NCBI GenBank assembly: GCA_937959115.1
Contig: CALGAW010000015.1
Span: 1 to 64,000 of the forward strand
Reading direction: 5' to 3'
Origin: an uncultured Saprospiraceae bacterium
GTDB taxonomy: Bacteria; Bacteroidota; Bacteroidia; Chitinophagales; Saprospiraceae
DNA length: 64,000 bases
The position numbers and the translations under genes were made by a program. A model generated the notes under the pieces. The model had not been told where the DNA came from. It saw only the letters and a program-made list of their open reading frames with translations, and ran no database searches. Positions 13,398 to 57,867 of the stretch are shown here, piece by piece. Positions within the stretch are counted from its first letter, which is position 1. Each line of letters starts with the position of its first letter.

Positions 13398-13509
13398 AAG
13401 CAATACAATATAAAATTATCATTTAGCGCAATTCCTTGTGTTTATTCTGAAGGATTATTATCTTATTGTTGTCAAAGTAAGTAACAATCATAAAAAATGT
13501 AGTTTAACT

Positions 13510-15363
13510 ATGCAGTATACAAAAGTTGCTTTTCTCGTCGTTGGAGTCTTGATTTTCCTTTCCTTTATGAAAGTTGAGAATAACGGAATTATTGATTTGT
13601 CTGCTTTGGATAACTATGCAAACCAACCCATCCCCAACTACATAAACAAAGACAACACCCCTGGGAATAATCCGATCACAGATGCCGCCGCAACCCTTGG
13701 AAGAGTATTGTTTTATGATAAAAAGTTGTCGGTAGATAATACCATCTCTTGTGCATCCTGCCATCAACAGGCATTCGCATTCAGTGACCCTGACATCGCA
13801 AGTACAGGGGTAAACGGAACCACTAATAGACACTCCATGAGACTCATCAATGCCAGATTTGGAGTCGAGCAACAATTCTTCTGGGATGAACGAGCTAACA
13901 ATCTTGAGGAACAAACCACTCAACCAATCCAAGACCATGCAGAAATGGGCTTTAGTGGAACAAATGGCGACCCAGACATAGATTCATTGATAAGCAAGAT
14001 GGAAGATGAATCATACTATCAAGATTTATTCACGTTCGTATATGGAGATAATCAAGTTACTGAACTCAGAATCCAACGTGCACTTGCACAATTCATTAGA
14101 AGTATTCAGTCATTTGATTCAAAATATGATGCAGGAAGGGCTGTTGTAAATAATCAGAATGCACCCTTTCCAAATTTCACACAGCAAGAAAATAACGGAA
14201 AAAATCTGTTTATGACACCACCTCAATTCAATAATCAAGGCGCACGTGTCGGAGGAGGAATTGGCTGTCAGGCTTGCCACGGGGCTCCTGAATTTGATAT
14301 TGTCCCCAATTCAAGAAACAATGGATTTGTAGGCGTCATAGGTGGACAAGGGCAAGACCTTAATAATGAACGGTCTCCTAGCTTAAGAGATATCTTCAAT
14401 ACAGCTGGGACTCTAAACTCGCCTTTAATGCACCAAGGTGTAACGTTTAATCAGGTGGTCAGTCACTACAATCTAATGCCAAACGTAAATAATCCGAACT
14501 TAGATAATAGATTGCGCCCTGGTGGTAACCCGCAACGTCTTAACATGACGAATGCTGAGCGCAGTGCGCTCGAAGCGTTTATTAAAACCCTTTCAGGAAC
14601 AAATGTATACACAGATCCTAAGTGGTCAGACCCGTTTGATCCAAATGGAGGCTTGGTCATTACTGGCACACCGCCACCGCCTGTTGCTTTTGTCCTTGCT
14701 GATGTAAGAGCAATGCTTGAAGGACCATTCACTGGGACCAATCTAATGGATGATGCACTAAGAGCCCAAAATCTAATTCCTATTACTGAGCCGTATACAG
14801 CGCTTGGACATACTCCAGTAAACCATCCTGGTGGGGAGTCAATCGTTGACTTGACCGTCTTAAATGTTACCGGACCTCGTGCAATTGTAGACTGGGTATT
14901 TGTTCAACTGTTAGATAAAAATGATCCCACAATTGTTCTAGCTACTCGGTCTGGCTTAGTTAGACGTGATGGGCGCATTGTTGACATGGATGGAAATGCC
15001 CCACTTCAGTTTGATAATGTTGGTCCGAATGACTATTATGTTGCAGTAGCCCACAGAAATCACTTAAGAGTGCACACCACAAACACTATGAATTTAAATG
15101 CAACGACTGCTGCTGTTGTCGGCTTTGTCAATCCACAAAACCCAATAGCACCCGCAGGAGCAATGACACTAATCAACAACCGCTTAGCATTGTGGGCAGG
15201 CGATGCATCAAATGATAACGTCATTAATTCAATTGATCGCAGCCAGATTTGGAATGCTCGAAATATAGTTGGTTATTCTCAAGAAGATGTAGAGTTAAAT
15301 GGTAGCTGTCAAGCAGGTGATCGAAGTATCAGTTGGAACAACAGAAACAGGATAGGTATGTAA
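13510..15363 (+). CDS. Di-heme cytochrome c peroxidase with shared C-terminal module
   Basis: Family CCP/MauG periplasmic or surface peroxidase that reduces hydrogen peroxide using two c-type hemes. The ATG at 13510 is preferred over an in-frame GTG at 13438 because it puts a signal segment (MQYTKVAFLVVGVLIFLSF) at the N-terminus. Heme sites are C81-A-S-C84-H85 and C253-Q-A-C256-H257 in the 617-residue numbering. The CCP part ends near residue 390; a proline-rich linker leads to the roughly 200-residue C-terminal module (14683-15360; MLEGPF, AIVDWVFVQL, AHRNHLRV, two Asp-rich loops) shared with the proteins at 8674-11295 and 36622-38424. Canonical CCPs lack such an extension, so this form is probably exported to the surface. 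Confidence 0.88.
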   Translation: MQYTKVAFLVVGVLIFLSFMKVENNGIIDLSALDNYANQPIPNYINKDNTPGNNPITDAAATLGRVLFYDKKLSVDNTISCASCHQQAFAFSDPDIASTGVNGTTNRHSMRLINARFGVEQQFFWDERANNLEEQTTQPIQDHAEMGFSGTNGDPDIDSLISKMEDESYYQDLFTFVYGDNQVTELRIQRALAQFIRSIQSFDSKYDAGRAVVNNQNAPFPNFTQQENNGKNLFMTPPQFNNQGARVGGGIGCQACHGAPEFDIVPNSRNNGFVGVIGGQGQDLNNERSPSLRDIFNTAGTLNSPLMHQGVTFNQVVSHYNLMPNVNNPNLDNRLRPGGNPQRLNMTNAERSALEAFIKTLSGTNVYTDPKWSDPFDPNGGLVITGTPPPPVAFVLADVRAMLEGPFTGTNLMDDALRAQNLIPITEPYTALGHTPVNHPGGESIVDLTVLNVTGPRAIVDWVFVQLLDKNDPTIVLATRSGLVRRDGRIVDMDGNAPLQFDNVGPNDYYVAVAHRNHLRVHTTNTMNLNATTAAVVGFVNPQNPIAPAGAMTLINNRLALWAGDASNDNVINSIDRSQIWNARNIVGYSQEDVELNGSCQAGDRSISWNNRNRIGM

Positions 15364-18607: not shown

Positions 18608-21600
18608 ATGAGAAGAACTCATTTTAGCACTCACTATTTTAGTAAGCAGTTATCAAAAAGTGCCTTCATTTTTAATAAATTAATATTAAAATGTTGTTTT
18701 GCAGCAATATTGATGATTGGCTTTTTTGCAAACGCAAATGCCCAATGTCCAACAATTTTTATGGACGATTTAAGGGGCGTCCCTGGTTATCCAGAAGTTA
18801 ATGAAGTAACTGTATGCGGTGTTCCCGATACAATTTCAATGTACATTAATAACACTTCAGGTCAAGTACTTTCTTTTTCTGAATTAACATTAAACGTCCC
18901 CCTTGGCTATGAATATGCAGGGGATTTTGGATTTTTTGATCCCAGCTATCCAGTAGCTCAAGGAAATGTTTCAGATCCAAACAACCCAGAATTCACCTTG
19001 GCAATGCTTGGAGCAGATAGCGTACAAATAGTATGGTTTACCATAACTGCTACATGTGATATCTATACCCTTCCACCGGATACAGAATTCTTCTTCGGTG
19101 CAACGTTTGATTTCTTCATAGGAGCAACCCCATGCACCGAAACTTGGACTGGGTTAAATGATTATGGATTGTATACTAGGAGACCATCACTTAATATTTT
19201 AAGTGTTAGTCCCGTTGCAGCTAGTATTACAACTGCTGATGAAAGATGTAGTAATATCACAATTAAACAAACAGGTATTGATGCCTCCATCACTGAATTT
19301 GATTTTGAAATTGATGGTGTGGAATTGGCACCAGATTTTGACATGACCATAAACATTGGTGGAGTTAATGTCCCATATACCTATAATCCTGGTACGATGG
19401 AAGTAGATGCAGTCATTGATGATACTTACTTTTCAGCAGGAACCCTTGACGAGGATGAAACTGTTGTTGTGCAAGTATGTTACATTCAATTGTTGGATTG
19501 TGATACAAGGAGAGACATCATTGATGTTACTTATAAAGCGTCATTTGGTTGTGGAGATTCAGATGAGCCATGTACGGATCCATCTATTGCAGAAGGTAAT
19601 TATCGATATGCGCCAAACTTCCAAAATGCACCTCAAATTACCAGTACAACAATTCAAACGCCACAAATTTGCGGAGACAATGCTATTTTTGAACTTACCT
19701 TTGTTTCTAATCAAACTGATTCGCTAAAAGGATTAATTAGAGATTTTGAAGGTGGTATTCAAGTTTGTGCAGGAGATGCATTCGAAGCGGTAAGTGCAAT
19801 GATTGTTGGAGGAGCTGCATTTCCGGCAACTGATCTTTATTTCGATGGAACTTACTTTATGGCAAGTTCATTAAACTTTACTACTGATCCGGATGGTCCG
19901 GGAGGATTGTCCGATGCAGATGGCGATGGTTTCTTTGATGATATTGTCGGAGGAGATCAAGTAACAATTCGATTTGAAGCAGCAATCAAATGTCAAGATG
20001 GTGGCCTTTCTGGCTGTGCATCTATTGATTGTGAAGCAAATAGCGCAAAAGTTAAAGGACTAAGAAACTGTGATGCTCCATTTAATTTGAATAGGGCGAT
20101 TACACCAACAGTATTCTCTTATGGCTCAACCTCAACTACTGTAAATCCAGATACAATCGGAAATGGAATAGTTACGTTTGACTTTGGTGTAAGTTCTGCC
20201 TCAAAAACAGTCGATGTTGAGTTTTGTTATGAATTTGGTAGCAACGGTGTTACGGGTTGTGGTAATAGTGATATTTATTTCGAACTCGACCTTACCGGAG
20301 CACCTGCACTTGTCTCAGACATGGAGCTCGAAATGAGTACGGTCATGTACGATGGAACACCTGTTCCTGCAACAGATGTATCGGTTACATACGACACATT
20401 AGTTCCCGACAATAAAGTAATAAGAATAAATGCAGGAGACGCAATGCCCACCGGGCAAGTCTGTTATAGCTTTGATATCACTATAGATTCTTGTATCTGC
20501 TACTCAAGAAGATATGTAGGAGCTACGTTCAATGTTGTGGAAGTTTGTAATGATTGTACTCCTGACGCATGTACCATCGTAAGAGCTTGCGAACAATCTA
20601 CCTTCTCTGCAGTAAGAAACTGTATGTGTGAGTGTTTTATTCAAAGTCATTTTGAAGAAGTAAGACGAACGGATTACGGATATACAGACGCAACAATGAC
20701 AACACCTGTTGATACATCAACCATTTCAACATTAGATAAGAAAAGATTTTTACCTTGTGATTCTGTATATGTCCATGCAGTTCATGAAATACTAGATGGA
20801 GAAAAGTTGTCAGAAGGTCACAGACTATATATATACAACTTTGCATGGTCTGTATTCGGAAGATACCATAGTCCAGGATTAGAATTGTTACCGCATTATT
20901 CAAATTCCAGAGTTGCAGAATTTTCATTTGAAAAAGCATCTAACCCAGGTGTAAGAGTCCCAGTTGATTTGACAGGAGGATGTAATTCAGGTAATCAATC
21001 CTACTATCAATATCGTGGAGGTCAGAGTACTGTTGTTCCAGGTGCCACTCATATTTGGCCCAATAATGATACATATGATGCTCGTGATAACGAAGGAGTG
21101 TATTTTCTTATAATGAATAGAGAAACAGAATTTGCTAATGGTTCTCCTACTGCTGCAACAGGTGAATGTTTGACTGAGCTTGAAACCCAAATGGCAGGTT
21201 TCGAAGATGGAGACAAATTTCACGTAAGATACGCAGTACCATTACAGAAGAACCCTTACCGGATGGAAAATGCAGATATTGCTGCAAAACCAAAAGGTAA
21301 TTTAAACATGTATTCTTATGGTGCCGTATATCAATATGTTTCAGGAACATTTACAAACCAAAGTGCTGGTTGTCAAACCCCTATGCCAATCGAATTGTAT
21401 TGTCCTGATACCCTAAAGGCTGTAACAGATATAAATGCCACAAGCTGTGATGCAACGGTAACACATACCATAGAAATGGCGTCAAATGCCGATGCTGATT
21501 GGTACCCAAATGAGTATAGACCAATCTATCATTTCGACTCAATTTCCCTACCACTAACTACACCATTTGCTTACGGCTCAAACCTAATGGCAACTTATGC

Positions 21601-24600
21601 TGGAAACCCTGTTGCTTTAACAGATCCAACTTTTGACGATGCATCTACGTGTGTTTATGATCCAGTTTCTGCTAGCAATTGTTGTACGCCTAGTGGAGCA
21701 AGTAGTACTATGTTACTAGACCCAACGGAATTTCCTGAGTTCGGTATAGGATTAGGAGGTGCCACTCCTGAGAAACTTGTGATAACTTACGATCTTAAAA
21801 AAATATGCCCAGGATCTGTTCCAGAACCCACAGATTATGATATAGGACTCGTATATTCTCTACCTTGCAGCTTTCAGTCTGAGGGATATCATTGTAATTA
21901 CCATTCACGTCCTGCTGTTACTCCACTTGTAAGTTTCTTTGGTGATCCTTCTCAAACATGGCCAATCCCTGAATGTAATGGAGGTGGACCAGGAACAACT
22001 GGCTACAATACACCTAAGTTTGATGAAAAAGATTATCACTTAGATACCCTATATGGAAAATCATTGAACTATATGGAGATGGCATCTAGTCTTGGTCCAT
22101 TAGCCTGCACAATTCAAAAGGACTTTGTAGGAGATGCTTCTGGCGCTTCTGAATTCAATACATATGAGGTATGTGCAAGTGGAGCAGGAACACACATGAA
22201 CGTAGTGACTTCAATTAACGTTCCGCTTACCGTTGATCTAATCAATGTAACTGATGGTAATGGAAACCCTGTGACCTGGTCTCAAACCGGAACCAGTGCT
22301 ACAGCAAACACATACTATGTGCAAACACCTGACTTAAGTGCGGGAGATTGCTTCGAAATTATTATTGAAACAGAATTGTTGTTCTGTCCAACAGAAGATT
22401 TGTTAACTGAAGTTTGTATTAGCTCTGCATCAGGTTGCTTATCACCTGAATTGACTTCACAGTTGTTAGCTGGAGGTGGAGATGCCTGTACATCTGCAAC
22501 ATGTTGTTATGAGTATACTGCTGGAGAAGCAGAAATACAAAATACATGGGAAACTGCAGCTCCAAAATATGCAGATCTTTGTGATACAGTGCATTTAGAA
22601 ATACTAATAAAGAACGTAAAAGATGCAATTCTCACGAATTTAGAAACACAAATTGTACTTCCTGCTGGGTTAACTTATATCCCAGGTTCATTTGAGTATG
22701 TATATCCTGGAATTTCAGGCGCACCTGGAGTAGGAATGTCAGATCCAACGGGGGGAGGGACGAGTCCATATGGACCTGCATCTTCAATATTTGATGTGTC
22801 AGTACCTCCAATACTACAAAATGGCTTCCCTGGAATACTAGCACCAGCTGGCGATAATTTATTAATCTATCGTTTTGTAGCAGAAACCAACTGTGATGAA
22901 TATGTATCTAATACACCATTCTACGTAAAAACAGATGCAGACGACCCATGCGAACAACGAATTAATTCAGGCTGGATACCTCATCCAGGAATTATTGTAA
23001 ACGGTGCAGATCCTGCAGATTTTGCCCAGTTTGTGATCAACATGGATCCGATTGATTATGTTTGCGGAGGTCCAGTACCAGTTAGCTTCTCTGCAGTGAA
23101 TCTATCAACGACTGGAGGCGTTTCAAACAATACTACGACTTGTATGACTTTCCCTCCTAGCTTACTGTATACACCTGGTAGTTTTGTGTTTACTTCACCA
23201 GGAGCCTTTACACCAACGAATGTAACAGAAACGGCACAGGCAGATGGAAGTGTTGAAGTATGTTTTGATGTCCCAGATGGATTGAATCCTCAACAGTCCT
23301 TTGCAGGAACTGTAGAGCTTGAAGTTGATCCTAGTGTCGAATGTGGAGAGGTACTTGTCGAAGCATTGATTATGTCAGAATTGGATAGTATTATTTGTGT
23401 TACCACAGGCATGGCATGTCCAGTCTTTGTGAATAATTCTATTAATCAATATTTAGTCTTAGAAATTAATCCACCAATTCAAATGTCGGAGGTAGAGTTG
23501 ATCGTTGCATGTGATGAAGATCCATTAAATGCAACCTTAGACTATATGATAACGGTTGAAGCAGATAGTACACCTTACAGTGGACCTGTAACGTTTGAAT
23601 TTGTCTATGATATCGATCAAAATGGAATGATTGACAGTTATGATCAAACCATCTATACAGGATCTTCCATGGTTAATGTTGGAGCAGGGATGTCAGAAGA
23701 AATAACTGGTTCGATCGGATCTGTTGCAGAAGAATTTACATGCCCATTACTAGTGAAAATGACAATTGATCCAAATTGTGCTTGTGATTCACAAGTATTT
23801 GAATATACTGGACCTCCAAAGCCAGACTTCTTAGCAGGCTTAACTGATCCATTGATCATTTGCCCCGGAGAAGTAGTAAGTCTTATAACCTGCAGTAACT
23901 ATAGCTTCGAATATCTAATGCCAGCAAGTTTAGGAACTGTAACCCCTGACTCAAGGGGAGAACTTTTGCTTGGCGGCTACCCCAGCTCACCTGTGCAGCT
24001 TGCAGTTACTGGTGGTACTGGTGGATGTGACACAACTTGGGTTATTGAAATCATTCAGTTAGATGATTTTACATTGGCAGACGGTTCAGCAATTGTGTGT
24101 AATTTAGAATGTACTACATTAGATGCTGGTATCCCTGAAGAATGGTTAGGAGCAGTAAGTGTTAGCTGGTCTCCTGGTACTTATCTTGATGATTCCACAT
24201 CTGCTACTCCAATGATTTGTAATCCAGATGCAAGTATAGTTTATACGGTTACTGTTACTAACCCTGCAGATTGTGATGCATTTCCAACAACTATACCTAC
24301 TCAAACTTTTGGTGCAGGTAATTGTTGTACAACAACAGCAACCTTCTCAGTGAATGTTTTAACTCCACCAATTCCAGATATCATTTGTGATGCTAAATAT
24401 GGAGAGTGCTACTTCCCTGAAGACCCACCAACTATTACAGTTTTACCAGCAGGTTCTTCAAACTACGATTTCTATTATTCAAGTACATCTGGAGGACCAG
24501 CAGTATTAGTTCAATCAGGGACAAGCAACGTCCATATTGCAGCGAATATTACAGGTTACTACACAGCAATAGTTCTTAACGGTATATGTTCTACGCCTGT

Positions 24601-27600
24601 AGACACAGTATTCAAGATGGCTCTTCCAGATTGTTGTGAGTTAGCAATGACAGATCCGAATGCATTCTGTTGTATTATAACAGATTCAACAATGATGGAT
24701 TCTCCTTTAGCAACCTGGGATTGCGATATGGGAGGAGTAGACAACATTACAGAATGCTTGTCAGGAGGAAATCCAGGAGACTCCGACGACGACTGCCAGA
24801 TAGCAGCAGAGGAAGGCATGGACATCTGTGCAGAACTTGACCCTGATGGAGACGGAGTTTTCGATGAAACCCACCCATGGGCTACCCAGGACTGTGACGG
24901 AGGAGGAGTAAGCAACATAGATGAATGTATAGCAGGAACAGATCCAAGCGATCCAAGTGACGATCCAACTTGCCCCTGTCATGATGCAGAAGCGGGAACA
25001 ATTGATATCTGTGCTATTCTAGCAGTTGATCCAACAAATCCAATTGGGACATTAGACTGCGACGAAGGCGGAGTAGATAACTTAACAGAATGTGAAGAAG
25101 GAGGAGATCCTTTAGATCCAGCTGATGATTGTGATATGGCTGAGATTGCAGAAGTAGATATCTGTGCTTTGATAGCAGCAGATCCAATGCACCCAATGGC
25201 AAGTCTTGACTGTGATGGCGGAGGCGTCTTAAATATAGACGAGTGTAACGCAGGAGAAGATCCTTTTGATCCAATGGATGACTGTGATGCGGCGATAGCA
25301 GAAAATGTCAATATCTGCGTAATCGTACTAGCTGATCCAATGGGACCATTAGCACTCGCAGATTGTGATGACGGTGGTGTAAATAACTACCAGGAATGTA
25401 TAAACGGTGGAGATCCAAGCGACCCAGCTGACGATTGCGAAAGTGCAGGAGCAGCAGGTGTTTCTATCTGTGCAGTTCTAGATCCTGATGGAGATGGAAC
25501 CTTTGACCCAACGCACCCATGGGCGACTATGGATTGTGATGGTGGCGGAGTTGATAATATTACAGAATGTATTACTGGAGACGATCCAAGTAATCCAAGT
25601 GATGATCCACAATGCGCTTGTGATGAGGCAGAAGCGGGAACACTTGATATCTGCGCATTACTAGCACTCGATCCAGATAACCCAATCGGCACATTAGATT
25701 GTGACGAAGGTGGCGTAGATAATGCAACAGAATGTGCGAACGGAGGAAATCCAATTGATCCTGCAGATGATTGCGACATGTGGCAGCATACAGGAATTGA
25801 TCTATGTATTCTATTGGCCGGTGATCCAATGCATCCACTAGCAAGTGTAGACTGTGATGGCGGCGGCGTAAGCAACATAGAAGAATGTGATAGTGGAGAA
25901 GATCCATTCGATCCAGCAGACGACTGTGAATCCGCAATAAATAATGAATTAGATATCTGTGCAATTGTATTGAATGATCCAATGGGAATGCTTGCCACAC
26001 AAGATTGTGATGAAGGTGGAGTAAACAACATTGACGAATGCCAAAACGGTGGTGACCCCGCCGATCCAGCAGATGACTGTGAAGCAGCCTCAGAAATGGG
26101 CGTAGATATTTGTGCAATACTAGCAGCAGATCCAATGAATCCGTGGGGTACATTAGACTGTGACGGTGGTGGAGTTAGCAATGCAGATGAATGTATAGCG
26201 GGCACCGACCCGAACGATCCAGCCGACGATCCAACTTGTGCCTGTCACGATGCAGAACAAGGAACGATTGATATCTGTGCAATCTTAGTAGCGGACCCAA
26301 TGAACTCGATTGGAACGTTAGATTGTGATGAAGGTGGTATCGATAATGCAACAGAATGCGCAGAAGGTGGTGATCCATTAGACCCTGAAGATGATTGCTT
26401 AGTCGCAGAAGTTGGTGACGTTGATATCTGTGCAATAATCGCAGCAGACCCAATGAGCCCAATGGCAGATTTGGATTGTGATGGCGGCGGAGTCAGCAAT
26501 GCAGATGAATGTAACGCAGGAGAAGATCCATTCGATCCAGCGGACGACTGTGACGCAGCAATAGCAGAAGGCGTAGATATTTGTGTAATCGTACTAGCGG
26601 ATCCAACAGGCCCACTAGCACTTGCAGATTGTGATGAAGGTGGCGTAAACAACATCGAAGAATGTCAAAACGGAGGAGATCCAGCGGACCCAGCGGATGA
26701 CTGTGATGTAGCAGCCGATACTGGAGTAGATATCTGTGCACTAATAGCTGCAGATCCAATGCACCCATGGGGTACATTAGACTGTGATGGCGGCGGAGTC
26801 AGCAATGCAGATGAGTGTATAGCAGGCACCGATCCAAACGATCCAGCAGATGATCCAACATGTGGATGTCACGATGCAGAAATGGGCACCATTGATATTT
26901 GTGGAATACTAGCAGCAGATCCAACGAACCCAATCGGCACACTAGACTGTGACGAAGGAGGAGTAGATAATGCGACAGAATGTGCAGAAGGAGGCGACCC
27001 ACTAGATCCCGCAGATGATTGCGATCTATGGCAGGCAACAGGAATCGACCTTTGTGTCTTACTAGCAGGCGATCCAACACACCCATTAGCAAGTGTTGAC
27101 TGTGATGGAGGTGGCGTATCGAATATCGATGAATGTGCAAGTGGAGAAGATCCATTTGATCCAGCAGACGACTGTCAGGCAGCAATCGACGGTGGAGTGG
27201 ATATCTGTGCGATTGTCTTAAACGATCCAACAGGCCCACTAGCACTGGCAGATTGTGATGAAGGTGGCGTAAACAATATTGAAGAATGTCAAAACGGAGG
27301 AGATCCAGCCGATCCAGCGGATGACTGTGATGTAGCCTCAACACTGGACATTGATATTTGTGCGCTAATAGCAGCAGATCCAATGCACCCTTGGGGAACA
27401 TTAGACTGTGATGGTGGAGGCGTAAGCAATGCCGATGAGTGCATCGCCGGCACTGATCCAAATGATCCTGCAGATGACCCAACTTGTGGCTGTCATGATG
27501 CAGAAGCAGGCACCATTGATATTTGTGCAATACTTGCAGCAGATCCAACGAACCCAATCGGAACAGAAGACTGTGACGAGGGAGGAGTAGATAATGCAAC

Positions 27601-30600
27601 GGAATGCGCAGAAGGAAATGATCCATTAGATCCAGCAGATGATTGTGATTTAGTAAACGATGGTACGGTAGATGTATGTGCAATTCTAGTAGTCGACCCT
27701 ATGAATCCATTAGGTTCAGAAGACTGTGATGGTGGTGGAGTCGATAATGCAACGGAATGTGCAGAAGGAAACGATCCAAGCGATCCACTAGATGATTGTG
27801 AAGTAGCTATAGCTGCGGGTGTCGATATTTGTGCAATTGTACTGAACGATCCTACTGGTCCATTAGCAATGGCTGACTGCGATGAAGGTGGCGTGAATAA
27901 TATTGAAGAGTGTATGAATGGAGGCGATCCAGCAGATTCAGCGGATGACTGTGATGTGGCTTCAACGCTTAATATTGATATTTGTGCAATTCTAGCAGCA
28001 GATCCAACACACCCTTGGGGTACATTAGACTGCGATGGTGGAGGAGTAAGTAACGCTGATGAGTGTATCGCTGGAACGGATCCTAATGATCCAGCCGATG
28101 ATCCAACATGTGCGTGCCATGATGCAGAAGCAGGAACAATCGATATTTGTGCAATCTTAGCAGCAGATCCACTGAATCCATTAGGTACATTAGACTGTGA
28201 TGACGGTGGCGTAGATAATGCAACAGAATGTGCGAATGGAGACGATCCATTAGATCCTGCAGATGACTGTGATTTAGTCAATGATGGAACAGTTGATGTA
28301 TGTATGATCCTAACTGCAGATCCAATGAACCCATTAGGTTCAGCAGATTGCGATGGCGGAGGTGTAAGTAACGCAGATGAGTGTGCCAATGGAGGTGATC
28401 CAAGTGATCCAGGCGATGATTGTGATATTGCAATAGCAGGTGGACTTGATATTTGTCTCTTAATCGGTTCAGATCCAATGCATCCACTAGCGACGCTCGA
28501 TTGTGATAATGGAGGAGCAAATAATTACGATGAATGTACAAATGGAGGTGATCCAAGTGATCCAGCTGATGACTGTGATGTTGCAGCAAATACTGGAGCA
28601 GATATTTGTGCAGCACTAGATCCTGATGGAGACGGCACATTCGATACTACGCACCCATGGGCTACATTAGACTGTGATGGCGGTGGAATTGATAACATCA
28701 CTGAATGTATGAATGGAGATGATCCATCAAACCCAAGTGATGATATGTACTGCCCATGTGACGCAGCAGCGGCAGGAGACATTGATATTTGTGCAGTAAT
28801 CGCTGCGAATCCAAACAGTCCAATTGGAACACTAGACTGTGATGAAGGGGGAGCTGATAATGCCACAGAATGTGCTAACGGAGGCGATCCAAACGATCCA
28901 GCCGATGACTGTGATGTTGTAGCAGACGCTGGATTAGATATCTGCGTAATTGTCCTACTAGATCCAACAAGTCCACTAGCAACAGTAGACTGTGACGGAG
29001 GGGGAGTCTCAAACTATGATGAATGTATCACAGGAGAAGATCCTACAGATCCAGCCGATGATTGTCAGGCTGCAGAAGATGGCGGACTTGATCTATGTGC
29101 ACTAATCGGAGCAGATCCAACACATCCAATGGCAACGCAAGATTGTGATGGAGGTGGTGTGAATAACTACGATGAATGTGCAAATGGTGGTGATCCAATG
29201 GATCCAGGAGATGATTGTGATGTTGCTTCTACACTTGATATTGATATCTGTGCGATGATAGCAGCAGATCCAACACATCCATGGGCTACATTAGACTGTG
29301 ATGGCGGAGGTGTGAGCAACGCAGATGAGTGTATTGCAGGAACTGATCCAAACGATCCAGCTGATGATCCTACTTGTGGCTGCCATGATGCAGAAGCAGG
29401 AAATATAGATATCTGTGCAATCCTAGCAGCAGATCCAATGAATACAATCGGAACATTAGATTGTGATGAAGGAGGAGTTGATAATGCAACTGAATGTGCT
29501 AATGGAAACGATCCATTAGATCCTGCCGACGAGTGTGATTTGGTCAATGACGGAACTGTAGATGTATGTATGATTTTATCAGCTGATCCAATGAACCCAT
29601 TAGGTTCTGAAGATTGTGATAATGGTGGAGTGACGAATGCAGATGAATGCAGTAATGGAGGCAATCCAAGTAGTCCTGCAGACGATTGTGATGTAGCGAT
29701 AAACGGAGGATTAGATATCTGTGTACTAATTGGAGCAGATCCTATGCATCCACTAAGTCAACTAGATTGTGATAACGGAGGAGCCAATAACTATGACGAG
29801 TGTATGAACGGAGGCGACCCAAGTGATCCAGCGGATGACTGTGAGGTGGCAGCTGATACTGGAATAGATATCTGTGCAATTCTAGCTAGCAATCCAGCAC
29901 ATCCATGGGGTACATTAGACTGCGATGGCGGTGGAGTGAGCAATGCGGATGAGTGCGCAGCTGGAGACGATCCAAGTGATCCTGGAGATGACAACAACTG
30001 CAGAGATCTTTGCTTAGAGGCTGAGACAGATGGTACCGATATTTGCGTATTATTGGCAAGTAATCCAACACATCCATTATCTACGTTAGATTGTGATAAT
30101 GGCGGTATGGATAATGAGACAGAATGTGCGAATGGAGGTGATCCAAACGACCCAGCAGACGATTGTGATGTTGCAGATCAAGGAGGAGTCAACATCTGTG
30201 TATTGATTTTGGTTGATCCAACCCACCCAATGGCATCACAGGATTGTGATGGAGGCGGCGTGTTGAATATTGATGAGTGTAACACAGGAGAAGATCCATT
30301 TGATCCAGCTGACGATTGTCAAGCAGCGATTGATGGTGGTTTAGACATCTGCGCAATCATTGGTTGGAACTCAACGCATCCATTAGCAACAGCTGATTGT
30401 GATGGAGGTGGAGTAGATAACTATACGGAATGTCAGAATGGTCATGATCCAGCTGATCCTGCAGATGACTGTGAAGCAGCTGTAGACGGAGAAGTTGATA
30501 TCTGTGCTATACTAACTGCAAATCCAACACACCCAATGTCAACTATGGACTGTGATAACGGAGGAATAGACAATGAAACAGAGTGTGCTAGTGGAGAAGA

Positions 30601-33412
30601 TCCATTAGATCCTGCGGATGATTGTCAAACAACGATAGACGAGCAAATTGATATTTGTGCACTAATCAATGGCGATCCTAATCACCCACTAGCAACAGCG
30701 GATTGTGACAATGGAGGAGCAATGAACATCAAAGAATGCTACCACGGTCAGGATCCAAGTAATCCTACAGATGACTGTGCAACCATCCTTGATGCTGAGG
30801 TTGATATCTGTGCAATTATTCTAGTTGATCCATCGCACCCATTATCTACTCAAGATTGTGATAATGGTGGCATCATCAACATTATTGAATGTAATAATGG
30901 AGATGATCCAACAGATCCTAGTGATGACTTCTATTGTAATGCACCTGACCCATGTGATGAGTTAGACGGAAGTCAAGATATCTGTGTTATTCTTGCCGAT
31001 GACCCAAGTCACCCACTAGCGACAGCGGATTGTGATAAAGGTGGTGTAGACAACCAGACAGAGTGTGACAATGGTGGTGATCCATCAAATCCAGCTGACG
31101 AGTGTGCGATAGCAATCGCAGGTGGAGTTGATCTATGTGCAATAATAGGAGGCGATCCAACACATCCAATGGCGACGCTAGACTGTGATGAAGGTGGTGT
31201 ACCAAACATTGAAGAATGTTACACAGGAGAAGACCCATTAGATCCAGCTGATGATTGTCAAGCAGCGATTGACGGTGATATCGATGTATGTGATATCTTA
31301 ATTAATCCTGATGGCACTTATCACCCAATGGCAACAATGGATTGTGATAATGGTGGCGTACCGAATATCAATGAATGTCTATACGGTTATGATCCAGAAG
31401 ATGCCTCAGATGAATGTGAAGCAGCTTTGGGTTGTGGATTAGACATTTGTGTATTGATTGGAGGTGATCCAAATCACCCATTAGCTGATCTAGATTGCGA
31501 TGGTGGTGGAATAGATAACCATACAGAATGTCAGAACGGTGGTGATCCTGGAGATCCAAGTGATGATTGTTTCATTGCATTAGAAGCAGAAGTAGATATC
31601 TGTGTACTCATGTGTGGTGATCCAACGCATCCAATGGCGACACAAGACTGTGATGGTGGTGGAATGCCAAATCACGTTGAGTGCACCGCAGGAACAGATC
31701 CAATCAATCCAGAAGATGACTGTATAGCTGCAATTGAAACAGGCGTTGACGTCTGTACAATGATTGCGCTAGATCCAACTAGTCCTTATGCAGGTTATGA
31801 TTGTGATAATGGAGGTATTGACAATGGAACAGAGTGTGCAAACGGAGGTGACCCTGCAGATCCGACAGATGACTGTCTTGCTGCGATAGCAACAGGAGAA
31901 GATGTCTGTGCGATTATCAATGGTGACCCAGCGCATCCAATGGCAAGCCTAGATTGTGATGATGGTGGTATTGACAATTATACAGAATGCTCTAATGGCA
32001 CGGATCCAGCAGACCCAAGTGATGATTGTTCAGCGGCGAAAGCAGCTGGTATCAACATCTGTATCTTGATTAACTACGATCCAGCTCACCCACTAGCACA
32101 GTTAGACTGTGATAATGGAGGTGTGACGAACATCATTGAATGTATGCATGGAGAAGATCCATGTGATCCATTAGATGATTGTGGAGCGGCAGTAGAAGAA
32201 GGTATGGATATCTGTGCAATGTTAGCTGCTGATCCTTCACACCCCTGGGCATCATTAGATTGTGACCGTGGAGGTGTAGATAATGCAACTGAGTGTGCAA
32301 ATGCGGGCGACCCGACTGATCCGATTGATGATCAAAACTGTACACCTGATCTTTGTACTCAAGCAGCAGATGGTACGATTGATATCTGTGCATTACTTGC
32401 AGCAGATGCATCACATCCAGTTGGCACATTAGATTGTGATGGCGGTGGTGTAATGAACGCTGTAGAGTGCAGCGCAGGAGCTGATCCATTAGAATCAAGT
32501 GATGATTGCTCTGCAGCAGAAACTGCGCAATTAGATGTCTGTGCAATGATTCTTGCAGATCCAACTCATCCGTTAGCAGCAGCTGACTGTGATGGAGGTG
32601 GTGTTGCAAATGCAATTGAATGTGGAACTGGCTCAGATCTATTTGATGCAACAGATGATTGCCAATCTGCAATTGATTCAGGTGTGAATATCTGTCAGTT
32701 GATTAACTTCGATGCAACACATCCTTTAGCAAGCCTTGACTGTGATGCTGGAGGAGTGGACAATATTACAGAATGTAACTCAGGAGGTGATCCTAGTGAT
32801 CCAAGTGACGATACATCTGATATTTGTTTAGAAGCGATGGACGGTAATTCAGATATCTGTGCAATGTTGACCGCTGATCCGACGCATCCAATTGGAGCAG
32901 GAGATTGTGATAATGGAGGTGTAACGAACTTGGAAGAGTGCCAGAACAATAATGATCCAACTGATGGATTAGATGATTGTCCTGACTTGACACCAATTAC
33001 TACAATCTTACCAGGTAACATTGCTGGTGTAAGTGGCGTAGGAGTTGCAGTTGAAATCACAGAATTGAACGGAATCGATACAGATGGATCACCGATCCTG
33101 GTAAGAATGCCATCAGATCCACGATTAACATTTGTTTGGAACCCAACATTGACAAGCGTAGCACTGACAGCAGTTAACAACGCGAACTGGACATACTTGG
33201 GCAACAATGGAGTTGTGCATACATTCCAGTACAATGGACCTAGCCAAGTGATCTTGGGTAGACAAACAGAAGCATTTGGCTTCCAGTCTACTTATGATCC
33301 ACAGGCGACAGATGGACAAACCACCGTTACTGCGTCGATCGTACCGTTTGGAGGAGGTGAATGTAACATCCTTAACGATACAGACTCTGAACGACTGGTA
33401 TACTTTGAATAA
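18608..33412 (+). CDS. Giant secreted Asp/Cys-rich repeat protein (4934 residues)
   Basis: A long signal peptide ends near residue 46 (FFANANA|QCPT). Residues about 47-2030 are beta-rich, Cys-containing adhesin modules related to the N-terminus of the SprB-like protein at 1-6050: both have PDGPGGLSD..DGDGF and a PNEYRP.Y..DS segment. Residues about 2037-4790 are 53 units of the form DCDGGGVxNxxECxxGxDPxDPxDDC joined by DIC..(I/L)..DPxHP segments. Carboxylates and paired cysteines suggest calcium-binding, disulfide-stabilised units, loosely like thrombospondin type 3 repeats. The last 140 residues form a separate module ending in SERLVYFE. I infer a very long extracellular stalk or adhesin, probably a T9SS substrate, but I see no classical T9SS tail. 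A terminator follows. Confidence 0.85.
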   Translation: MRRTHFSTHYFSKQLSKSAFIFNKLILKCCFAAILMIGFFANANAQCPTIFMDDLRGVPGYPEVNEVTVCGVPDTISMYINNTSGQVLSFSELTLNVPLGYEYAGDFGFFDPSYPVAQGNVSDPNNPEFTLAMLGADSVQIVWFTITATCDIYTLPPDTEFFFGATFDFFIGATPCTETWTGLNDYGLYTRRPSLNILSVSPVAASITTADERCSNITIKQTGIDASITEFDFEIDGVELAPDFDMTINIGGVNVPYTYNPGTMEVDAVIDDTYFSAGTLDEDETVVVQVCYIQLLDCDTRRDIIDVTYKASFGCGDSDEPCTDPSIAEGNYRYAPNFQNAPQITSTTIQTPQICGDNAIFELTFVSNQTDSLKGLIRDFEGGIQVCAGDAFEAVSAMIVGGAAFPATDLYFDGTYFMASSLNFTTDPDGPGGLSDADGDGFFDDIVGGDQVTIRFEAAIKCQDGGLSGCASIDCEANSAKVKGLRNCDAPFNLNRAITPTVFSYGSTSTTVNPDTIGNGIVTFDFGVSSASKTVDVEFCYEFGSNGVTGCGNSDIYFELDLTGAPALVSDMELEMSTVMYDGTPVPATDVSVTYDTLVPDNKVIRINAGDAMPTGQVCYSFDITIDSCICYSRRYVGATFNVVEVCNDCTPDACTIVRACEQSTFSAVRNCMCECFIQSHFEEVRRTDYGYTDATMTTPVDTSTISTLDKKRFLPCDSVYVHAVHEILDGEKLSEGHRLYIYNFAWSVFGRYHSPGLELLPHYSNSRVAEFSFEKASNPGVRVPVDLTGGCNSGNQSYYQYRGGQSTVVPGATHIWPNNDTYDARDNEGVYFLIMNRETEFANGSPTAATGECLTELETQMAGFEDGDKFHVRYAVPLQKNPYRMENADIAAKPKGNLNMYSYGAVYQYVSGTFTNQSAGCQTPMPIELYCPDTLKAVTDINATSCDATVTHTIEMASNADADWYPNEYRPIYHFDSISLPLTTPFAYGSNLMATYAGNPVALTDPTFDDASTCVYDPVSASNCCTPSGASSTMLLDPTEFPEFGIGLGGATPEKLVITYDLKKICPGSVPEPTDYDIGLVYSLPCSFQSEGYHCNYHSRPAVTPLVSFFGDPSQTWPIPECNGGGPGTTGYNTPKFDEKDYHLDTLYGKSLNYMEMASSLGPLACTIQKDFVGDASGASEFNTYEVCASGAGTHMNVVTSINVPLTVDLINVTDGNGNPVTWSQTGTSATANTYYVQTPDLSAGDCFEIIIETELLFCPTEDLLTEVCISSASGCLSPELTSQLLAGGGDACTSATCCYEYTAGEAEIQNTWETAAPKYADLCDTVHLEILIKNVKDAILTNLETQIVLPAGLTYIPGSFEYVYPGISGAPGVGMSDPTGGGTSPYGPASSIFDVSVPPILQNGFPGILAPAGDNLLIYRFVAETNCDEYVSNTPFYVKTDADDPCEQRINSGWIPHPGIIVNGADPADFAQFVINMDPIDYVCGGPVPVSFSAVNLSTTGGVSNNTTTCMTFPPSLLYTPGSFVFTSPGAFTPTNVTETAQADGSVEVCFDVPDGLNPQQSFAGTVELEVDPSVECGEVLVEALIMSELDSIICVTTGMACPVFVNNSINQYLVLEINPPIQMSEVELIVACDEDPLNATLDYMITVEADSTPYSGPVTFEFVYDIDQNGMIDSYDQTIYTGSSMVNVGAGMSEEITGSIGSVAEEFTCPLLVKMTIDPNCACDSQVFEYTGPPKPDFLAGLTDPLIICPGEVVSLITCSNYSFEYLMPASLGTVTPDSRGELLLGGYPSSPVQLAVTGGTGGCDTTWVIEIIQLDDFTLADGSAIVCNLECTTLDAGIPEEWLGAVSVSWSPGTYLDDSTSATPMICNPDASIVYTVTVTNPADCDAFPTTIPTQTFGAGNCCTTTATFSVNVLTPPIPDIICDAKYGECYFPEDPPTITVLPAGSSNYDFYYSSTSGGPAVLVQSGTSNVHIAANITGYYTAIVLNGICSTPVDTVFKMALPDCCELAMTDPNAFCCIITDSTMMDSPLATWDCDMGGVDNITECLSGGNPGDSDDDCQIAAEEGMDICAELDPDGDGVFDETHPWATQDCDGGGVSNIDECIAGTDPSDPSDDPTCPCHDAEAGTIDICAILAVDPTNPIGTLDCDEGGVDNLTECEEGGDPLDPADDCDMAEIAEVDICALIAADPMHPMASLDCDGGGVLNIDECNAGEDPFDPMDDCDAAIAENVNICVIVLADPMGPLALADCDDGGVNNYQECINGGDPSDPADDCESAGAAGVSICAVLDPDGDGTFDPTHPWATMDCDGGGVDNITECITGDDPSNPSDDPQCACDEAEAGTLDICALLALDPDNPIGTLDCDEGGVDNATECANGGNPIDPADDCDMWQHTGIDLCILLAGDPMHPLASVDCDGGGVSNIEECDSGEDPFDPADDCESAINNELDICAIVLNDPMGMLATQDCDEGGVNNIDECQNGGDPADPADDCEAASEMGVDICAILAADPMNPWGTLDCDGGGVSNADECIAGTDPNDPADDPTCACHDAEQGTIDICAILVADPMNSIGTLDCDEGGIDNATECAEGGDPLDPEDDCLVAEVGDVDICAIIAADPMSPMADLDCDGGGVSNADECNAGEDPFDPADDCDAAIAEGVDICVIVLADPTGPLALADCDEGGVNNIEECQNGGDPADPADDCDVAADTGVDICALIAADPMHPWGTLDCDGGGVSNADECIAGTDPNDPADDPTCGCHDAEMGTIDICGILAADPTNPIGTLDCDEGGVDNATECAEGGDPLDPADDCDLWQATGIDLCVLLAGDPTHPLASVDCDGGGVSNIDECASGEDPFDPADDCQAAIDGGVDICAIVLNDPTGPLALADCDEGGVNNIEECQNGGDPADPADDCDVASTLDIDICALIAADPMHPWGTLDCDGGGVSNADECIAGTDPNDPADDPTCGCHDAEAGTIDICAILAADPTNPIGTEDCDEGGVDNATECAEGNDPLDPADDCDLVNDGTVDVCAILVVDPMNPLGSEDCDGGGVDNATECAEGNDPSDPLDDCEVAIAAGVDICAIVLNDPTGPLAMADCDEGGVNNIEECMNGGDPADSADDCDVASTLNIDICAILAADPTHPWGTLDCDGGGVSNADECIAGTDPNDPADDPTCACHDAEAGTIDICAILAADPLNPLGTLDCDDGGVDNATECANGDDPLDPADDCDLVNDGTVDVCMILTADPMNPLGSADCDGGGVSNADECANGGDPSDPGDDCDIAIAGGLDICLLIGSDPMHPLATLDCDNGGANNYDECTNGGDPSDPADDCDVAANTGADICAALDPDGDGTFDTTHPWATLDCDGGGIDNITECMNGDDPSNPSDDMYCPCDAAAAGDIDICAVIAANPNSPIGTLDCDEGGADNATECANGGDPNDPADDCDVVADAGLDICVIVLLDPTSPLATVDCDGGGVSNYDECITGEDPTDPADDCQAAEDGGLDLCALIGADPTHPMATQDCDGGGVNNYDECANGGDPMDPGDDCDVASTLDIDICAMIAADPTHPWATLDCDGGGVSNADECIAGTDPNDPADDPTCGCHDAEAGNIDICAILAADPMNTIGTLDCDEGGVDNATECANGNDPLDPADECDLVNDGTVDVCMILSADPMNPLGSEDCDNGGVTNADECSNGGNPSSPADDCDVAINGGLDICVLIGADPMHPLSQLDCDNGGANNYDECMNGGDPSDPADDCEVAADTGIDICAILASNPAHPWGTLDCDGGGVSNADECAAGDDPSDPGDDNNCRDLCLEAETDGTDICVLLASNPTHPLSTLDCDNGGMDNETECANGGDPNDPADDCDVADQGGVNICVLILVDPTHPMASQDCDGGGVLNIDECNTGEDPFDPADDCQAAIDGGLDICAIIGWNSTHPLATADCDGGGVDNYTECQNGHDPADPADDCEAAVDGEVDICAILTANPTHPMSTMDCDNGGIDNETECASGEDPLDPADDCQTTIDEQIDICALINGDPNHPLATADCDNGGAMNIKECYHGQDPSNPTDDCATILDAEVDICAIILVDPSHPLSTQDCDNGGIINIIECNNGDDPTDPSDDFYCNAPDPCDELDGSQDICVILADDPSHPLATADCDKGGVDNQTECDNGGDPSNPADECAIAIAGGVDLCAIIGGDPTHPMATLDCDEGGVPNIEECYTGEDPLDPADDCQAAIDGDIDVCDILINPDGTYHPMATMDCDNGGVPNINECLYGYDPEDASDECEAALGCGLDICVLIGGDPNHPLADLDCDGGGIDNHTECQNGGDPGDPSDDCFIALEAEVDICVLMCGDPTHPMATQDCDGGGMPNHVECTAGTDPINPEDDCIAAIETGVDVCTMIALDPTSPYAGYDCDNGGIDNGTECANGGDPADPTDDCLAAIATGEDVCAIINGDPAHPMASLDCDDGGIDNYTECSNGTDPADPSDDCSAAKAAGINICILINYDPAHPLAQLDCDNGGVTNIIECMHGEDPCDPLDDCGAAVEEGMDICAMLAADPSHPWASLDCDRGGVDNATECANAGDPTDPIDDQNCTPDLCTQAADGTIDICALLAADASHPVGTLDCDGGGVMNAVECSAGADPLESSDDCSAAETAQLDVCAMILADPTHPLAAADCDGGGVANAIECGTGSDLFDATDDCQSAIDSGVNICQLINFDATHPLASLDCDAGGVDNITECNSGGDPSDPSDDTSDICLEAMDGNSDICAMLTADPTHPIGAGDCDNGGVTNLEECQNNNDPTDGLDDCPDLTPITTILPGNIAGVSGVGVAVEITELNGIDTDGSPILVRMPSDPRLTFVWNPTLTSVALTAVNNANWTYLGNNGVVHTFQYNGPSQVILGRQTEAFGFQSTYDPQATDGQTTVTASIVPFGGGECNILNDTDSERLVYFE
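24718..32979 (+). repeat. 53-unit Asp/Cys repeat array with 624 bp higher-order period
   Basis: I counted 53 DCDxGG...EC...DP..DDC units, averaging about 156 bp. Every fourth unit of the first 34 ends in a longer DDxxC.C form. The matching GAT/GAC codons of these lie at 24962, 25604, 26228, 26852, 27476, 28100, 28742, 29366 and 29990. The spacings are 642, 624, 624, 624, 624, 642, 624 and 624 bp. The two 642 bp blocks each carry a six-residue insertion (DPDGDGTFD form). After about 30000 the four-unit register is lost and units are more diverse. Confidence 0.93.
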
Positions 33413-36621: not shown

Positions 36622-38424
36622 TTAGTTTAGTTTGGGGATGCCCGAGAATATTCCGTTGTTGTAGGACCAGATGATTCTATCGTCTCCAGAAACGTCATTG
36701 TCCATGTTGTAGTCTGCTGGATGGTAGATGTTGAAGGTACCATTCAATGGTTGCCAGTAGGATTTATCAACTGCATTGATATCATAGCCTGTGGTTTCAT
36801 CTTGGTTTCCATTCCCAGCGAATAACACCCATTTATTGCCAATTTGTTTTTGGCCAAATCCAGCACCTTTAAAGCCTTCAGCTAAGGAGAAATTATGCGA
36901 AAGGTTACCGTTATTGATTGAGATTGGCTGCGCGGTGATTACAGGGAGGTGGTTTCGGTGTTCGATCATTACAAATACCGAGTTTAGACTAGAAAGTAAC
37001 GATATATCAAAAGGAGCGATTGTCCCATTCATGTTGAGCCTTGCAGCTTTACGGACCACACTTCCTCCATTGATACTTTCGCGAAAGGAAATTAATACCC
37101 AGTCTACCATGTTTTGTGGTGTTGGGTTAGGACTTGTCTCAGTGCCAAAGTAATTCCAATCTGGATGGTTATATGGTTGCTGATTCGGCAGGACTCCTGC
37201 TTGATTAAGTGTCGTTTGCATGTTCCCAGTTCCCGCGTCATAAGCACCTTCCAAATAAGCTGATAGATTGCATGTGACGAGTCTTGATGTTTCCTGAATA
37301 TGATAAATAGTTCCATCTGAAAGTCCAGCGACAAATAGCTCACCTGCAGAGGATTCCCCAAATGCAACAAAATTCTGTGAACCGAAATTACCCAAGGAGA
37401 AATTTGAATAGCCGCCTTGACCATTCGGTTCAAGATACCAGAAATTCCCAGTACAGAAGTCACTGTAAATATATTTGCCAAAGAGGTTAGGGTAGTCCTG
37501 ACCTCGGTAAACATAACCACCATTAATTGAACAGCCAATATTAAATTGGTTGGCATATTCATGCACCGGGAAGGTGAATTGGTTTTGGTTTCCACATCCT
37601 CCTAGGTTAAAGGAGGCATTACCTTCGTAGCAGCGCCAGCCATAGTTTTCGCCACCTGTACTATTTGCAGGTTGTACATTGATTTCTTCCCAATCGTCCT
37701 GTCCTACATCGGCAATCCATAGATCCTGTGTCAAACGATCAAATGAGATCCGCCATGGGTTTCTCAGTCCTACAGACCATATTTCTGGTTGGTAGGTGGG
37801 ATTTCCAACAAACGGATTGTCTGGAGGAATACCGTATGGGCTACCTGAATCCACATCAACTCGTAGCATTTTTCCTAGGAGGCGACTGGTATTTTGAGAG
37901 ATATTTTGTGGATCACCTCCTGAGCCTCCATCTCCTAGGGGAATGTACAAGTAGCCGTCAGGACCGAATGCTAGATCACCAGCGTTGTGGTTGGAGTATG
38001 GTTGATCAATATCCATAAGTATTACCTCACTATTCGGGTCTGCGATGTTCGGATCATTGCTTGAAACATTGAATCTGGAAATCCTAGTATCTCCTTGAGA
38101 ATCATTGTAGTTAACATAGAAATAACCGTTGTTTGCATAATCTGGATGAAATGCAAGACCAAGTAAACCGCGCTCATTGGCAGAAGAGTTGACTCTTGCG
38201 TCTATGTCGATGAACGGTGTTGACAAAACTGTGTTTTGCGCAGTGATAATCTTGATGACTCCATCCTTTTCTACTACAAAAAGTCTACTGTCTTGCGGTT
38301 TTATATCAACGGGTTTGTTGAACCCATTCGCATAGGGCACTAGGCTAATTGAAGGCTGGGCGACACAAATTACTGCGATTGCTGAAAGTGTAACAAAGAT
38401 GATTGCACGTAGGAGATTGTTCAT
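36622..38424 (-). CDS. Glucose/sorbosone dehydrogenase-like (PQQ) protein with shared C-terminal module
   Basis: 600 residues with a signal peptide (MNNLLRAIIFVTLSAIAVICVAQ). Residues about 25-375 form a six-bladed GSDH beta-propeller with typical segments: LFVVEKDGVIKII, LLGLAFHPDY, NHNAGDLAFGPDGYLYI, PEIWSVGLRNPWRISFD and DVGQDDWEE. Family members oxidise aldose sugars with PQQ, although many bacterial homologues have untested activity. From about residue 384 the roughly 200-residue module shared with the proteins at 8674-11295 and 13510-15363 follows (AYLEGAY, MVDWVLISF, EHRNHLPVI, GFGQKQIGNKWVLFAG, two Asp-rich loops). It probably acts outside the cell. It is divergent from a WYL regulator, which might control it. 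Confidence 0.88.
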   Translation of the reverse strand: MNNLLRAIIFVTLSAIAVICVAQPSISLVPYANGFNKPVDIKPQDSRLFVVEKDGVIKIITAQNTVLSTPFIDIDARVNSSANERGLLGLAFHPDYANNGYFYVNYNDSQGDTRISRFNVSSNDPNIADPNSEVILMDIDQPYSNHNAGDLAFGPDGYLYIPLGDGGSGGDPQNISQNTSRLLGKMLRVDVDSGSPYGIPPDNPFVGNPTYQPEIWSVGLRNPWRISFDRLTQDLWIADVGQDDWEEINVQPANSTGGENYGWRCYEGNASFNLGGCGNQNQFTFPVHEYANQFNIGCSINGGYVYRGQDYPNLFGKYIYSDFCTGNFWYLEPNGQGGYSNFSLGNFGSQNFVAFGESSAGELFVAGLSDGTIYHIQETSRLVTCNLSAYLEGAYDAGTGNMQTTLNQAGVLPNQQPYNHPDWNYFGTETSPNPTPQNMVDWVLISFRESINGGSVVRKAARLNMNGTIAPFDISLLSSLNSVFVMIEHRNHLPVITAQPISINNGNLSHNFSLAEGFKGAGFGQKQIGNKWVLFAGNGNQDETTGYDINAVDKSYWQPLNGTFNIYHPADYNMDNDVSGDDRIIWSYNNGIFSGIPKLN

Positions 38425-51621: not shown

Positions 51622-52086
51622 TAAACAATTCGCAACGAAAAGCAGATTTAATACCATTAATCTTGATCGTTAACATAAGTTATTGTAAATTAGGCTGTCA
51701 ATTCCAGCTAAATAGCGATAAAATATTAAGTCCACGAGCCAGGAATCTTGATTCTTATTGAACAAGGTTAATTGGTTCGATCCTTTAAAGCAAGAACCAT
51801 TAGACGATCTAATAATTATTGTCTCTTGTAAATACAATCAGGAGTTATTATTTACCGTTAGTAAAGTTGATTTGTTAGTTTTATCCCAAAGAAAGAAAAT
51901 AATTCTGAAAGTCATTATTTTTTGATTTCTGTTTTATTTCAATCTAATCTGCTTAATTCACTGTCTGATATCGCGATATATTGGAAGGAGGAATGAACAG
52001 AAAAAAAACTTTAACATCAATTTAACACGGCATAGACAGAGATTACTTTTTATTTTTTTAATTTTAGAAATACTTATTTGGATAAA
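51622..52086. other. Regulatory spacer upstream of the T9SS operon
   Basis: 465 bp without a gene. A perfect 12 bp palindrome ATATCGCGATAT lies at 51968-51979, about 108 bases before porP, in otherwise AT-rich DNA; it is the best operator candidate. An AGGAGG at 51986-51991 is followed after one base by an ATG opening only 10 codons, so it is not counted as a gene. Confidence 0.5.
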
Positions 52087-53070: not shown

Positions 53071-53250
53071 AGTATTAAGTTTAATAGAATAAAGAACAAG
53101 AATAAAATAGTAAAAGTCTGAAATTAGGTTGTAAACATTTTTTGAAGCCAATTATTTTTTAATTGTGATTACAAACCATATATTTACAGTTCTTTTACAA
53201 TAGAAATACTGTATTTACATAATTATCTTTAGTTAAATTCGGGTGCGAAT

Positions 53251-54495: not shown

Positions 54496-54545
54496 TCTGT
54501 GACAAGATACTACTGCAACGAAATTTACTAAAAATCGAATATAAT

Positions 54546-54567
54546 GGTGCTGTGTAAAAACAGCACC
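54546..54567 (+). other. Intercistronic hairpin between gldK and gldL
   Basis: Perfect 8 bp stem GGTGCTGT (54546-54553) with ACAGCACC (54560-54567), 6 base loop, not followed by a T-run. It could be an mRNA stabiliser or processing site rather than a terminator. Confidence 0.6.
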
Positions 54568-54623
54568 ACCTATATACTTATGTTAATTCGGTAACCCTTT
54601 TAACTAATTTTAAATTAAAAAAA

Positions 54624-55199: not shown

Positions 55200-55215
55200 T
55201 CATTAATTTTTGCAC

Positions 55216-55235
55216 ATTCTCTTAGAAAAGAGAAT
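55216..55235 (+). other. Intercistronic hairpin between gldL and gldM
   Basis: Perfect 8 bp stem ATTCTCTT (55216-55223) with AAGAGAAT (55228-55235), loop AGAA, followed by a mixed A/T stretch. It may tune GldL:GldM stoichiometry. Confidence 0.6.
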
Positions 55236-55262
55236 ATTCCTTATTTAAAATTTTAAATACTT

Positions 55263-56867: not shown

Positions 56868-56880
56868 AATAAATTAGCTC

Positions 56881-57816: not shown

Positions 57817-57867
57817 TATAGAGTAGCCTTTAGCCTCGATTTTGTGTCATTTGTCTTTACTCACACG

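Follow-up and report, generated by a model that had tools for sequence, protein, structure and literature searches.

A four-unit super-repeat in the Asp/Cys array of a giant predicted secreted protein from an uncultured Saprospiraceae bacterium

Bacterial repeat stalks are usually seen as recombining, length-varying arrays, the copies of a satellite higher-order repeat are expected to be nearly identical in DNA, and super-repeats comparable to those of titin are present in nebulin. In titin, as described in the accessible part of PMC10665226, domains at equal super-repeat positions are more alike than neighbouring domains, and blocks have been duplicated recursively. The Periscope Proteins, according to the accessible part of PMC8201768, are long tandem-domain rods on bacterial surfaces, variable in length and encoded by DNA repeats of very high identity. 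The array described here resembles the A-band super-repeats of titin, as that part of the titin source presents them, in that likeness at equal positions exceeds likeness between neighbours, and the titin super-repeat is its closest behavioural parallel. Titin and nebulin nevertheless differ from it in being eukaryotic, in being built of Ig/FnIII domains and in having known periodic partner filaments, and they are without homology to the array. A literature search of partial coverage found no description of the Asp/Cys array.

The window, that is the whole stretch of 64,000 nucleotides analysed, comprises bases 1-64000 of contig C15 of a 6.38 Mb genome in 90 contigs, and harbours a giant open reading frame (ORF) with 53 DCDxGG units, the parts of which are listed in the table. 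The very large length that the first-pass annotation of this DNA had foreseen is borne out by the ORF, and its signal-peptide-like start suggests that the product is secreted; the same hydrophobicity heuristic was passed by 17 of 25 array ORFs, five of the eight misses being truncated at the 5′ end. A Pfam scan of the whole protein gave no family at E<=0.1, and NCBIfam returned B_ant_repeat alone, under its cut-off.

Table. Position and basis of the features of the giant ORF (window coordinates).
Feature	Position	Strand	Basis
Giant predicted secreted protein, 4,934 aa	18608..33412	+	ORF call, translation
Signal-peptide-like start, 46 aa, end approximate	18608..18745	+	sequence and hydrophobicity heuristic; cleavage site inferred
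N-terminal region, about 1,990 aa; weak DUF11-like stretch at aa 1317-1363	18746..24718	+	18.8 bits, cut-off 24
Units 1-33, four-unit super-repeat, 208 or 214 aa per block	24719..29917	+	spacing, permutation, tree
Unit 1, 57 aa, DPDGDG insert	24719..24889	+	unit parsing
Unit 2, first of eight phase-2 'B' units, 55 aa, 5 Cys	24890..25054	+	Cys counts
Units 34-53, non-periodic tail, paralogue-conserved order	29918..32974	+	permutation, paralogue alignment
145-aa C-terminal domain ending SERLVYFE, Ig/CARDB-like predicted fold	32975..33409	+	profile search, model

The starts of the eight B units (24890, 25532, 26156, 26780, 27404, 28028, 28670 and 29294), together with the start of unit 34 at 29918, reproduce exactly the spacings of 642, 624, 624, 624, 624, 642, 624 and 624 bp that had been claimed for this array. 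Across units 1-33 mean amino acid identity is 0.720 at lag 4 as compared to 0.564-0.581 at lags 1, 2, 3, 5, 6 and 7, and DNA identity between in-phase units exceeds that between off-phase units by 0.078 (null standard deviation 0.0054), a value reached by none of 5,000 permutations. The first-pass annotation had asked for a monomer phylogeny, and in the maximum-likelihood tree of 52 monomers block-wise grouping was recovered, the phase labels of units 1-33 taking 3 changes, the fewest possible with four groups; support for most single forks is weak, with 28 of the 49 inner branches drawn open. The permutation test and the sorting of the tree by phase agree with the earlier view that monomers correspond between blocks and differ inside a block, and the phase grouping of the monomers shows an origin by duplication of four-unit blocks. 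The DPDGDG insert of unit 1 also occurs in unit 5 (25361-25531) and unit 25 (28499-28669).

The block gave 175 matches in its own genome at E<=0.001. From this genome 20 paralogue regions were taken, loci on C37, C61 and C6 being among those left out, and these regions contributed another 24 ORFs of three or more units, which together with the window array furnished 385 usable units; units outside 45-62 aa were dropped from this set of 25 arrays, as for example the 109-aa gaps in L034 and L047. The units are 51-58 aa long and carry an EF-hand-like acidic loop (D1, D3, G6, N9, E12) between Cys 2 and Cys 13, the five named residues of the loop occupying what we take to be the usual EF-hand loop positions, and short helices are predicted in each unit. 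All 385 units have N9, E12 and C13, and also D1, C2, D3, G5 and G6, the last five being positions favoured by the search pattern. Each unit has four Cys, or five in 65 of the 385. Within units 1-33 the fifth Cys occurs in all eight phase-2 units and in none of the 25 others, while it is found in six of 19 tail units, and all nine phase-1 (A) units have a Trp at the unit junction. Phase-specific columns lie, among other places, in the B insert and at the unit junction (W, I, L or M, L or M at the HPx position). The array has 656 acidic and just 5 basic residues in 2,754, and this composition, the EF-hand-like loop positions and the four or five Cys per unit make the calcium-stiffened, disulfide-braced stalk proposed in the first-pass annotation plausible.

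The nearest described profile is TSP3_bac (PF18884), which scored 26.2 bits against a gathering cut-off of 25 for the two-block segment 26780-28027 (416 aa) and matched eight of 30 segments, albeit not the whole protein, at E<=0.1; the same scan returned a spurious-looking PF16374 in 11 of the 30, a warning that acidic repeats inflate such scores. The TSP3_bac profile is matched by the first 22 residues of the window B units, but the window loop differs in that it lies between Cys 2 and Cys 13, inside a 51-58-aa unit that has two to three more Cys and a helical model. Pfam matches of repeat segments to CIF, adipokinetic hormone and BDHCT were put down to artefacts of composition or repetition. 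The AF2 model of the two-block segment, built from 30 aligned segments, is an all-helical regular repeat with a mean pLDDT of 88.6 and a pTM of 0.54. Foldseek gave three matches to this model at E<=10, the best at E 5.0, structure alignment gave no chain with Z>=2 among 40 aligned, and a PDB sequence search by repeat profile gave no match at E<=1; these fold searches do not establish a new fold, since single-domain matches can be missed with models larger than about 400 residues.

The description of the repeat as exactly 624 bp holds for block length and fails for sequence, as the six comparisons among four 624-bp blocks gave DNA identities of 69.9-77.1%, with protein identity (70.2-82.2%) the higher in all six pairs. 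Inside the array no exact repeat is longer than 32 bp, and exact matches between it and the 20 regions with paralogues reach at most 37 bp; mis-assembly of the array was judged unlikely because these exact repeats are so short. Blocks so diverged are far from the near-identical DNA of a satellite higher-order repeat, with which the array shares the grouping of units by block position. Measured against Periscope Proteins, as far as their source describes them, the array would likewise form a long tandem-domain rod but represents the opposite case, both in the divergence of its blocks and its short exact repeats and in the unit number kept in two paralogues (44 and 26 units; one genome). Synonymous identity, taken as codon sharing where two units have the same amino acid, with the expectation drawn from the column, is 0.585 for in-phase units as compared to 0.554 expected, and 0.583 for off-phase units as compared to 0.576 expected. 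As the blocks have diverged in DNA and their synonymous codons are near chance, the four-unit register is old and borne mainly by the protein. The residual in-phase synonymous excess of 0.023, equalled by three of 1,000 shuffles and greater at short lags, shows that traces of common DNA descent, or of later exchange on a small scale, are still visible. By contrast, an array at the end of contig C86 in the same genome (L040) has at lag 1 an amino acid identity of 0.88 and a synonymous identity of 0.82 as compared to 0.47 expected, and therefore exemplifies how recent expansion would look in this genome. Satellite-like expansion as a present process, as the first-pass annotation had it, is not supported, in view of the near-chance in-phase synonymous identity; a recent expansion of this kind as the main current process was rejected on the codon data, the 32-bp longest repeat, the 70-77% identity of the blocks and the contrast with C86, and blocks this dissimilar and exact repeats this short argue against recent homogenisation. 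The units of the C86 array are nearly identical and 51 aa long, and contig C6 opens with C86-like units and the 145-aa C-terminal domain; the two are possibly one gene split by the assembly.

Downstream of unit 33 no period was detected in units 34-52, 1,441 of 5,000 permutations reaching the observed value (unit 53, which runs into the C-terminal domain, was excluded from the test). The earlier statement that units after about 30000 had lost the register is thus right as to the absence of a period there and wrong as to decay, which is ruled out by a tail order common to paralogues. The C25 paralogue (L029), cut by a contig end, aligns to window units 3-46 with no gain or loss, its 44 unit pairs having an amino acid identity of 0.675 as compared to a mean of 0.539 and a maximum of 0.578 in 2,000 shuffles, and the C27 paralogue (L031) aligns to window units 27-52, with 0.661 over 26 pairs as compared to a shuffled maximum of 0.590. 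Synonymous identity to the window is 0.522 for C25 (0.491 expected) and 0.532 for C27 (0.493 expected). In the tail, collinear identity between the window and C25 averages 0.737, other offsets giving 0.498-0.572, and because paralogues keep this order unit for unit the tail represents a conserved non-periodic order. In the periodic part, each phase class of C25 has its counterpart in one phase class of the window (0.56-0.64 vs 0.45-0.52), and collinear identity is 0.649 as compared to 0.591-0.639 at other in-phase offsets. Lag-4 identity within the window array is, at 0.722, higher than this collinear value, and block turnover in the periodic part later than the gene copy is therefore possible. 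The L038 paralogue on C76 has a two-unit period with units of 51 and 55-57 aa (lag-2 amino acid identity 0.73 vs 0.59 at lag 1; synonymous identity 0.54).

Block matches were found in neither of two genomes of the same genus, in three of 30 relatives and in five of 298 genomes across the order, own genome counted in both of the latter figures, and a scan of named genomes identified 32 loci, of which 27 are in Saprospiraceae, four in Chitinophagales and one in Robiginitomaculum, where the match may reflect an error of binning. Two arrays from two other Saprospiraceae genomes, L119 and L120, share 29 aligned unit pairs with an amino acid identity of 0.801 (shuffled maximum 0.584) and a synonymous identity of 0.544 vs 0.489; 23 of the 32 L120 units find their best match in L119 on collinear runs and nine off them. 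The window array was collinear with none of nine arrays tested from other species, the best diagonals, at 0.44-0.57, lying barely above the medians. Super-periods vary, with the lag maximum at 2 in the related arrays L126, L135 and L038, at 5 in L122 of another Saprospiraceae genome (lag-5 amino acid identity 0.75 vs 0.51-0.61 at other lags) and, weakly, at 3 in L121 (6 units) and L124 (9 units).

We consider it fairly probable that old block duplications came first and that a secreted acidic rod was then kept for a long time under position-specific purifying selection. The array would make up the rod of a very large secreted protein, probably exposed on the surface, of a Saprospiraceae-like bacterium, and old duplications of four-unit blocks, as the phase grouping shows, generated the super-repeat; afterwards recombination would have been of little effect, and synonymous sites would have diverged almost to saturation as purifying selection specific to unit position held the protein. 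Such selection is suggested because amino acid identity is high while synonymous identity is near chance. The whole array would have been copied with its gene, the paralogues keeping unit number and order, as was found for two of them. The B unit of a block adds the fifth Cys, the adjoining A unit has the invariant Trp, and as both occur once per block there is probably one repeated special site per block, which may serve packing, cross-linking or the binding of a partner; calcium may neutralise and stiffen the rod. A bolder proposal, which we regard as rather unlikely, is that of a bacterial counterpart of titin and nebulin, a secreted rod of about 50 units with the same docking or cross-linking site at every fourth unit and an in-register alignment, together with the 145-aa domain as a secretion or anchoring class beside types A, B and C. 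The extra, possibly unpaired Cys beside the conserved Trp junction would be the docking or cross-linking site, the molecules would align with one another or on a surface structure that is itself periodic, and since unit number and order determine length and register, both would be fixed.

Alternatively, the array may be of the satellite or Periscope type, its copy number shifting now by unequal recombination and its register a by-product of recent block expansion. The block-wise monomer grouping, the recently homogenised C86 array in the same genome, the small residual synonymous signal and the excess of within-window lag-4 identity over window-C25 identity are all in keeping with this, yet it is unlikely given the 32-bp longest exact repeat, block DNA identity that lies under protein identity, and the retention of unit number and order in two paralogues. 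It is quite improbable that four units make one superhelix turn, with identical faces every 208 residues and selection acting on that face: the lag maxima of related arrays (2, 5 and, less clearly, 3) indicate that four is no fixed geometric number, and the pTM of the two-block model is 0.54, even though the phase-specific columns include the unit junction and the B insert and the model is a regular helical repeat of high mean pLDDT. We regard as very unlikely a neutral relic, in which old four-unit duplications have yet to diverge and the register is without function; phase-specific identity does fall with distance in places (within units 1-33, amino acid identity is 0.664 at lag 16 vs 0.720-0.746 at lags 4 and 8), but synonymous sites are near chance at an in-phase protein identity of 0.72, and phase classes are common to the window and a paralogue. 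Under the favoured account of old duplication and position-specific selection, the keeping of unit order and super-period despite near-saturated DNA offers a natural test of why super-repeats persist, and the array family is also a case for testing whether giant proteins of fixed register are in use among bacteria.

At E<=0.01 the last 145 residues of the protein matched 78 places in the own genome, and at 74 of these the match spans nearly the full length. After removal of duplicates and of matches with poor query coverage, 43 distinct domain sequences (30 from the own genome) were found in which the match stops 0-7 residues before the stop codon, and 21 of the 24 paralogue ORFs end in the C-terminal motif, the other three being cut by contig or region ends. 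Neither Pfam nor NCBIfam assigned a family at cut-off to 40 domain sequences. The domain was modelled with a pLDDT of 97.5 and a pTM of 0.90, and beta-sandwiches of CLIPPER, CARDB, integrin and pilin domains appear among the top 50 structure matches listed, the best having a Z of 13.2 and an rmsd of 2.6 over 131 aligned residues. Membership of a cellulose-binding family, indicated by weak profile matches alone (E 0.0062; CBM_2 E 0.0053), was not accepted. This unannotated domain closes many predicted secreted proteins of one genome, and is a candidate secretion or anchoring signal.

With type IX secretion system (T9SS) substrates the protein shares a signal-peptide-like start, a Bacteroidota host with SprA and gld genes, and a conserved C-terminal domain modelled as a beta-sandwich, but it differs from type A and B substrates in that the 145-aa domain is under all NCBIfam and Pfam cut-offs. 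The type A tail (TIGR04183) had no match in the 4,934-aa protein at E<=1 or in any of the 40 domain sequences, and the type B tail (TIGR04131) matched neither the protein nor the 40 sequences; elsewhere in the genome type A tails occur at 150 places or more and 38 of 40 type B matches lie over the cut-off, and SprA is encoded at C15:81310-88527. For the ChiA-type type C tail (cl41395), a family described in the accessible part of PMC10202324, NCBIfam gave no match, and its model may be absent from the library used. The domain is rare, being found in six of 298 genomes of the order and five of 395 of the phylum (own genome included), and SprA is present in all five domain-bearing genomes, but also in 303 of the 395 overall, so this co-occurrence is uninformative. 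A further class of T9SS tail is possible.

A different C-terminal module, VDWVLI...HRNHLP...DYNMDGxVxxxD, ends the window ORFs 8674-11295, 13438-15363 and 36622-38424 (by eye). The C-termini of L119 and L120 resemble it, also by eye, and repeat arrays of different species therefore have different tails. A second giant ORF at 3-6050 on the - strand, which runs off the contig start, contains eight stretches of SprB-type repeats and has only short N-terminal similarities to the main ORF; the Pfam names Dna2_Rift and PEGA on its array were likewise put down to artefacts of composition or repetition. At 52078-57759 lie what we take from the translations to be a porP/sprF-like ORF followed by gldK, gldL, gldM and gldN in this order, and the small ORF adjoining gldN (57844-58656) resembles, by eye, a free-standing C-terminal part of GldM.
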